A stretch of DNA of 64,000 nt from Rhodospirillaceae bacterium. Lineage in GTDB: Bacteria > Pseudomonadota > Alphaproteobacteria > TMED109. A program made the position numbers and the translations under genes. Below are positions 47,759 to 49,845 of the stretch, one piece after another. Within the stretch, counting starts at the first letter, position 1. Every line of letters begins with the position of its first letter. Location of the stretch: the NCBI GenBank assembly GCA_902557845.1, contig CACEBX010000003.1, positions 1-64,000 of the forward strand, given 5' to 3'. The notes under the pieces were generated by a model that was not told where the DNA came from, did not search any database, and was given only the letters and a program-made list of their open reading frames with translations.

Positions 47759-49162
47759 CTAAACGCTGTAATACATATCAAACTCTACTGGATGTGTAGA
47801 GTTATTTAATCTACTGACTTCCTCTCTCTTGAGTTCAATATAACCTTCAATCTGATCATCTGTAAAAACACCACCTTCAGTTAGAAAAGCTTTATCTTTT
47901 TGAAGAGAGTCTAGCGCATTTTCTAATGAAGTAGCCACTGTATTAAGGTTTTTAAGTTGTTTTTCTGAAGCTTCATATAAATCAAAATCAATCGCATCTC
48001 CTGGATTAATTTTATTTTGTATTCCATCTAGTCCTGCCATTAACATTGCTGAAAAGGCTAAATAAGGGTTAGAGGCAGCATCCGGAAACCTCACCTCAAG
48101 TCTCTTTGCTTTATCTCCTTCTGCATATGGTATTCTAATTGATGCAGATCTATTTCTTGCTGAATATGCTAAAATGGTAGGGGCTTCGAAACCAGGAACC
48201 AATCTTTTATAACTATTAGTGGTAGAATTTGTAAAAGCATTGATTGCTTTTGCATGCTTTATAATGCCCCCTATGTAATAAAGACAATCTTGCGACAACC
48301 CACTATATTCACTCCCTGCAAATAAAGGAGAATCACCTTTCCAAAGAGATTGATGACAATGCATTCCAGATCCATTGTCATTTATAACTGGCTTTGGCAT
48401 AAAAGTAGCTGTTTTTCCATATGAGTGGGCAACCATATGTACCACATATTTATATTTTTGCAAATCATCAGCACATGAAAGTAGCTCATCAAATTTTCCT
48501 CCAAGTTCATTTTGTGAAGGAGCAACTTCATGATGATGTTTTTCCATAGTAAGACCCATTTCCATCATAGTACCTACCATTTCTGCTCTCATGTCTGTCA
48601 TAGAGTCTACAGGAGGAACCGGAAAGTAACCACCTTTCATAGATGGTCTGTGTCCTATATTACCACCATCAAAGGAGTTTCCTGAATTGTAAGGACCTTC
48701 ATCAGAGTCAAGCTGATAAAATGTATCATTCATTGATACGTTCCATTTAACATCATCAAATACAAAGAACTCAGCCTCAGGTCCAAAATAGGCAGTATCT
48801 GCTATACCAGTTTTTTTTAAATATTCTGTTGCTCTTACTGCTGTTGACCTAGGACATCTAGAATACATTTCTCCGGTAGATGGTTCCACTACGTTGCAAA
48901 AAATAATAAGTTGAGGCTGGGCTGTAAATGGATCTAGTACTGCAGTATTAAGGTCTGGTTTTAATATCATATCAGATTCATTGATAGACTTCCAACCAGA
49001 TATAGATGAGCCATCAAACATAATTCCATTATTTAATAAGTCTTCATCAACACTTTCAACGGTTTGGGCAGTATGTTGCCACTTACCTTTGGGATCTGTA
49101 AATCTAAAGTCTACAAACTTCACCTCGTTTTCTTTAATCATTTTAAAAATTTTGTCAGTCAT
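47759..49162 (-). CDS. glnA: Glutamine synthetase, type I
   Basis: 467 aa. FDGSSISGWKSINESDM, GPEAEFFVFDD, KHHHEVAPSQNELGGKF (metal Glu/His), MPKPVINDNGSGMHCHQSLW and RIPYAEGDKAKRLEVRFPDAASNPYLAFSAMLMAG are the GS signatures. FDLYEASE near residue 397 carries the Tyr for adenylylation. It fixes ammonia. A leader of about 190 nt with a glutamine-riboswitch-like RNA (49252-49306) separates it from glnB. AGGAG ribosome site before the ATG. Confidence 0.97.
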   Translation of the reverse strand: MTDKIFKMIKENEVKFVDFRFTDPKGKWQHTAQTVESVDEDLLNNGIMFDGSSISGWKSINESDMILKPDLNTAVLDPFTAQPQLIIFCNVVEPSTGEMYSRCPRSTAVRATEYLKKTGIADTAYFGPEAEFFVFDDVKWNVSMNDTFYQLDSDEGPYNSGNSFDGGNIGHRPSMKGGYFPVPPVDSMTDMRAEMVGTMMEMGLTMEKHHHEVAPSQNELGGKFDELLSCADDLQKYKYVVHMVAHSYGKTATFMPKPVINDNGSGMHCHQSLWKGDSPLFAGSEYSGLSQDCLYYIGGIIKHAKAINAFTNSTTNSYKRLVPGFEAPTILAYSARNRSASIRIPYAEGDKAKRLEVRFPDAASNPYLAFSAMLMAGLDGIQNKINPGDAIDFDLYEASEKQLKNLNTVATSLENALDSLQKDKAFLTEGGVFTDDQIEGYIELKREEVSRLNNSTHPVEFDMYYSV

Positions 49163-49251
49163 TACTACTCCTAATTATCTATTTTAAAAAAGAGCTTATT
49201 GATTACTACGGTATAGATCTATATAAATTGAAAAGTATAATTATCATAATT

Positions 49252-49306
49252 ACCGCGTTCCTTCAGCATAAGCTTACTTCCGATCTACAAAATGCAGATT
49301 GAACGT
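49252..49306 (-). promoter_or_regulatory. Glutamine riboswitch (glnA RNA motif) in glnA leader
   Basis: On the minus strand, CGTTC (from 49305) pairs with GAACG (to 49256) to close a three-way junction. ATCTGC/GTAGAT forms stem two and AGC/GCT stem three. The joining bases read GATCGGAAGTA and GAAGGAACGC, the conserved core of the glnA-type glutamine aptamer known from cyanobacteria and marine sequences. It lies about 90 nt before the glnA ATG, so it would sense glutamine and adjust glnA. No computed fold is available, so the call rests on motif and stem matching. Confidence 0.85.
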
Positions 49307-49353
49307 TTAATAATAGTATTACGTTTAAATCTGATGTCAACAACAATAGTAAA

Positions 49354-49710
<357 letters not shown>

Positions 49711-49767: not shown

Positions 49768-49845
49768 GGCGACTGTAGCTCAGTTGGTTAGAGCGCTGGT
49801 TTGTGGTACCGGAGGCCGTGGGTTCGATCCCCATCAGTCGCCCCA
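49768..49845 (+). tRNA. tRNA-His (GTG)
   Basis: Cloverleaf with D stem GCTC/GAGC, anticodon loop TTGTGGT (GTG reads CAY), T stem GTGGG...CCCAT, acceptor GCGACTG/CAGTCGC. A G at position -1 (49768) pairs with C73 as needed by histidyl-tRNA synthetase, and CCA is encoded. Confidence 0.97.

Follow-up and report, generated by a model that had tools for sequence, protein, structure and literature searches.

Glutamine riboswitches of the class represented by RF01739 (Glutamine-I) have been described from cyanobacteria and marine DNA, together with their links to nitrogen genes and their tandem copies (PMC2864571, PMC9481103). In environmental DNA they were reported with genes for glutamine synthetase (GS), PII and ammonium transporters, again with tandem copies (PMC2864571). 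A 2018 review restricts the class to cyanobacteria, states that the GS, PII and ammonium-transporter associations appear limited to environmental sequences, and describes the tested members as switching expression on (PMC6316151). The tested riboswitch of Synechocystis precedes gifB, which encodes a GS inactivating protein that is induced by glutamine. Glutamine-II (Downstream-peptide RNA, RF01704) shares its ligand and some of its core motif with Glutamine-I (PMC2864571, PMC6698751), but is pseudoknotted and found upstream of cyanobacterial small peptides. Glutamine riboswitches are also already known from marine phages linked to SAR11-type hosts; the Melnitz and Mosig copies, from phages of streamlined bacteria including SAR11, are of the same class and adjoin ssrA or phage genes (PMC9004378).

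An analysis of a 64-kb stretch of alphaproteobacterial DNA (the window) was conducted, in which the whole window was searched with cmscan against all families of Rfam 15. The only matches are RF01739 and four tRNAs. RF01739, the glutamine riboswitch aptamer, matches the glnA leader on the minus strand over the full length of the model (1-53 of 53) with E = 1.3e-10, far over the gathering score of 35; several aptamers from relatives score 63 bits or more. No match to RF01704 at its gathering threshold was found across the window. The aptamer is between glnB and glnA, both on the minus strand (Table 1), and so is in the 5' leader of a nitrogen-assimilation gene. The glnB assignment is by best match, to PII, with a score under the narrow equivalog cut-off of 202. 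A tRNA-His gene is present at 49769-49845 on the plus strand, head to head with glnB, between it and an Hsp90-like gene. The sequence-only reading had placed a glutamine riboswitch at 49252-49306, with a three-stem structure and conserved core, between these same two genes of an alphaproteobacterial-type genome, and had proposed a covariance-model threshold and stem covariation in relatives as checks. Its coordinates are correct to within one base, and the structure, core, gene context and type of host are all borne out, as are both checks.

Table 1. Features of the glnB-glnA region, in window coordinates
Feature	Position	Strand	Basis
Glutamine riboswitch aptamer (RF01739)	49252..49307	-	59.5 bits; covariation in 74-75 distinct relatives
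Aptamer P1	49305-49301/49260-49256	-	
Aptamer P2	49299-49293/49289-49283	-	
Aptamer P3	49274-49272/49267-49265	-	
Aptamer core CGGAAGTA	49282-49275	-	
Aptamer core GAAGGAACG	49264-49256	-	
P4 hairpin, CGGUA 49255-49251 with UACCG 49213-49209	49209..49255	-	directly after P1; invariance and predicted fold
Candidate anti-P3 strand AUAAGCU	49193..49199	-	complements AGCUUAU of P3 and loop (49274-49268)
Candidate anti-Shine-Dalgarno strand GCUCUU	49190..49195	-	overlaps anti-P3 by 3 bases
glnA Shine-Dalgarno AGGAGT	49167..49172	-	just before start codon at 49162
Putative sigma-70 promoter TTGACA-16-TACTAT	49313..49340	-	consensus scan, 10/12 matches
glnA, type I glutamine synthetase	47759..49162	-	TIGR00653 660.7 bits, cut-off 429
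glnB, PII signalling protein	49354..49692	-	NCBIfam NF008111 171.2 bits, E 8e-51, ORF list

The aptamer shares with Glutamine-I the covariance model, the three-stem junction and the invariant core, both parts of which (CGGAAGUA and GAAGGAACG) are present. The junction is maintained by compensatory changes in all three stems, as is seen in 74-75 distinct alphaproteobacterial aptamers. At the second pair of P2, 39 of the 74 have C-G and 35 have U-A, and the third is C-G (46), U-A (23), A-U (3) or U-G (2). The first pair of P3 is A-U in 40, G-C in 21, G-U in 12 and U-A in one of the 74. The inner P1 pair has two compensatory changes, being C-G in 73 and U-A and A-U in one each. By its sequence the leader element is a genuine type 1 glutamine riboswitch.

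The source genome of the window (1.31 Mb, 72% complete) contains one further RF01739 match over the cut-off. This scores 56.3 bits and is directly before amtB, an ammonium transporter gene (TIGR00836, 432 bits); it is outside the window and had no part in the earlier reading. In SP81, a near-complete sister genome, the aptamers are at these two targets as well and the order glnB-riboswitch-glnA is kept, and the sister genome TMED93 likewise has its copies at glnA and amtB. With aptamers at both genes in the same genome, what is regulated is therefore the uptake of ammonium together with its fixation. The kinds of target genes and the tandem copies are those reported for Glutamine-I from environmental DNA (PMC2864571), whereas the host is a marine alphaproteobacterium and not one of the cyanobacteria to which the review confines the class (PMC6316151). 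The position at glnA and amtB also sets these genomic copies apart from those of the phages. In the window's genome the riboswitch is on glnA itself; the Synechocystis riboswitch, on gifB, likewise adjusts glutamine synthetase to the glutamine level.

A pattern typical of the aptamer was scanned over 84,980 named species genomes, and all its hits are in uncultured marine Alphaproteobacteria, represented mainly by single-cell and metagenome assemblies (SP81, NP101, TMED93 and AG-430-C17 among them). When viral contigs were searched with a pattern for the order-specific aptamer, nothing matched. In the whole-genome samples, RF01739 is present in 12 of the 28 genomes from the window's order, in 65 of the 120 from a second order and in 6 of the 385 from the class. 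Tandem aptamer pairs precede glnA and two amtB genes in the second order, with up to 8 copies per genome. For example, genome G187 has four tandem pairs, at glnA (again with glnB upstream), two ammonium transporter genes and a gene for a circularly permuted ATP-grasp protein.

Some copies are associated with other genes. A glutamine riboswitch precedes the circularly permuted ATP-grasp gene (PF14403) at three loci of family f9 (L011, L030, L032) and one of family f141 (L029), and this position suggests that the enzyme is tied to nitrogen status. At L013 (G001:C12:68288-68396) and L009 (G022:C8:16607-16715), tandem riboswitches are followed by a conserved 35-residue peptide, MDRMSLYYF[TI]KERQAI..., and then a hairpin; the peptide has no Pfam match and recalls the small proteins under riboswitch control in cyanobacteria. 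A divergent aptamer at L015 (G016:C2:14046-14099; 49.8 bits), in which a P1 pair is U-A rather than C-G, is 20 bases upstream of a strongly basic protein of 51 residues, comparable in size and charge to the cyanobacterial GS inactivating factors. Tandem riboswitches at L005, L006 and L007 (G011, G004, G023) precede a small, secreted-looking protein of about 90-125 residues without a convincing Pfam match, in host genera that are mostly GlnD-positive. In L034, L029, L035, L037 and about 35 more loci of f141, the tandem linker CAUGC...AGUUAU complements a strand (AUAACU or AUAGCU...GCAUG) that is conserved downstream of the second aptamer, with some G-U/A-U variation, and the two could form a helix enclosing that aptamer. 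One amtB-type aptamer, L026 (G022:C39:3063-3112), breaks off after GAAGGAA and is fused to the 3' end of the amtB coding sequence, through an amtB deletion or an assembly fault.

The usual glutamine sensor of proteobacteria is GlnD, which modifies PII; the target of GlnE is glutamine synthetase. The host genus of the window's riboswitch has no match to either: GlnD was not found in any of its four genomes, including ones that are 97% and 91% complete, and GlnE, not found in this genus, was seen within the order only in the large-genome genus g7. In g1, g3 and g8 of the window's order, which have a riboswitch at glnA or amtB, GlnD is present in none of 11 genomes. It is present in 14 of 16 genomes from the sister genera g2, g4, g5 and g7, where any riboswitches precede genes other than these two. 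The single g6 genome, which is 59% complete, is without riboswitch and without GlnD. In the second order, none of the 65 riboswitch genomes, all of family f141, has GlnD, and all 42 GlnD-positive genomes are of family f31, which is without the riboswitch. A third family, f9, has the riboswitch before the ATP-grasp gene only and keeps GlnD in 3 of 4 sampled genomes, thus the exclusion concerns the control of glnA and amtB and not the riboswitch itself. There is no GlnD match in the RF01739-positive control genome of Synechococcus elongatus. The GlnD loss within the window's order may be a single event. The exclusion is correlative and draws on about two independent contrasts; causation is what we infer from it.

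Taken together with the leader described below, it is fairly likely that the riboswitch exerts feedback OFF control over ammonium assimilation in a streamlined marine alphaproteobacterium, standing in for GlnD. The alternative that deserves most weight, although we would not bet on it, is that the link to GlnD is incidental, the riboswitch and the GlnD loss being separate by-products of streamlining, with PII or another protein still sensing glutamine. Many reduced alphaproteobacteria without GlnD are also without the riboswitch; no GlnD match is present in 108 of 385 sampled genomes of the class, where loss of GlnD without a riboswitch is common, and SAR11 IIIa and LD12 carry glnB without glnD (PMC10030771). 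However, g2, g4 and g5, whose genomes are similarly small (1.1-1.7 Mb), retain GlnD without any riboswitch hit at either glnA or amtB, and the same split between riboswitch and GlnD recurs in the second order.

The sequence-only reading had suggested that PII and the RNA may both act on nitrogen assimilation. The PII gene is indeed present, but GlnD, its glutamine-responsive modifier, was not found in the genus. Since neither GlnD nor GlnE was found there, it is more likely that glutamine is sensed at glnA by RNA alone; from established PII biology, PII is probably limited to sensing 2-oxoglutarate and adenylates. The glnB product keeps the T-loop Tyr51 in alignment with relatives. A loss of this residue from the PII T-loop in the second order was considered and rejected, as a Tyr is still aligned there. 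Genes resembling NtrB and NtrC are found at L106 (G000:C13, 2276-8304), scoring 108 and 139 bits, far under the curated cut-offs, and adjoin an NtrY-like gene and a well-scoring NtrX (525.6 bits). NtrC may be degenerate, as if NtrBC were decaying in the window's genus.

Between the aptamer and glnA, the leader contains a putative expression platform. Directly after P1 is P4, which is present in the predicted fold. Its two strands are identical across the six glnA leaders aligned, without covariation, although the DNA that separates them has diverged. From the 5' strand of P4 to the start codon, no invariant block in the six leaders is longer than UACCGU. Downstream of P4, AUAAGCUCUU has two alternative pairing partners, the P3 strand AGCUUAU and, for its GCUCUU portion, the Shine-Dalgarno sequence AGGAGU. 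The putative promoter upstream would, going only by its consensus, place the transcription start at the aptamer's 5' edge; it is partly conserved in sister leaders, with such sites no more numerous in the scan than in shuffled sequence.

The switch is proposed to work as follows. When glutamine is scarce the aptamer would be open and its P3 strand would pair with the downstream AUAAGC, keeping the anti-Shine-Dalgarno strand away, so that glnA would be translated. When glutamine is plentiful, the ligand would close the P1-P2-P3 junction and free GCUCUU, which would mask AGGAG, and translation of glutamine synthetase would fall. The RNA would take the role of GlnD, the protein through which the PII system of other proteobacteria is informed of glutamine. 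Whereas the tested Glutamine-I member is an ON switch on gifB, this would be an OFF switch on glnA and amtB.

Folding argues only weakly for an OFF switch that would mask the glnA ribosome-binding site. The anti-P3 pairing appears as an alternative in the unconstrained fold of the window leader, and about 6 pairs are possible in every glnA leader compared, a complementarity that in single leaders is not beyond chance (P 0.14-0.65). Once the aptamer is forced to form, GCUCUU pairs with AGGAGU, and the predicted accessibility of the window's Shine-Dalgarno sequence is 0.00, vs 0.22 unconstrained, a drop that is not significant for this leader (P 0.15). It is 0.00 with the aptamer forced in all four glnA leaders of the window's genus; shuffled spacers have a mean near 0.3, and P is 0.01-0.04, although the leaders are related and the tests not independent. 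In the amtB leaders and the two glnA leaders from g8, forcing the aptamer gives accessibilities that do not fall below those of shuffles (P 0.30-0.59).

A search of the leader for an intrinsic terminator or terminator-like hairpin found none, and control of translation is therefore favoured. It is unlikely, though worth considering, that the aptamer represses glnA through transcription, by Rho-dependent or weak intrinsic termination near the conserved U-run at about 49190-49185, and not through access to the Shine-Dalgarno sequence. The glnA leaders do have a conserved AUAAGC strand followed by a U-run, and the masking does not extend to amtB, but a termination mechanism has to contend with that missing hairpin. 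We doubt still more that the aptamer is an ON switch, like that of cyanobacterial gifB, with glutamine raising the translation of glnA and amtB. Activation is indeed what the review describes for the glutamine riboswitches tested by experiment (PMC6316151); here, however, more ammonium uptake and glutamine synthesis at plentiful glutamine would amount to positive feedback, and in four leaders the Shine-Dalgarno sequence is masked in the fold with the aptamer forced. That the leader is a chance resemblance, or decayed and non-functional, can be dismissed: nothing speaks for it except an AT-rich leader of ordinary total fold energy (no better than shuffles, z -0.17), against the E-value over the full-length model, the compensatory changes observed in all three stems of relatives, and two copies at functionally linked genes. 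The best reading for glnA would be a translational OFF switch, with predicted Shine-Dalgarno masking in the window's genus and not at amtB.

The new elements are the named host lineages, the occurrence of glnA and amtB copies together in a single genome, and the mutual exclusion between such copies and GlnD, of which no report was found in the open-licence literature. Glutamine riboswitches at glnA and amtB, which earlier came only from anonymous environmental DNA, are now placed in marine alphaproteobacteria. A wider reading, which we offer tentatively and at slightly less than even confidence, is that an RNA sensor replaced GlnD separately in two marine alphaproteobacterial orders, through OFF control of glnA and amtB, and that the GlnD-less cyanobacteria would be a third lineage in which the two traits go together. 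In the genomes with the riboswitch at glnA and amtB, RNA probably took over the job of GlnD. This points to a way in which nitrogen could be controlled in bacteria that have PII and lack GlnD, a gap openly stated for SAR11 IIIa and LD12 (PMC10030771), and provides a case, concrete and open to testing, in which an RNA switch would have superseded a central protein sensor in genome streamlining.
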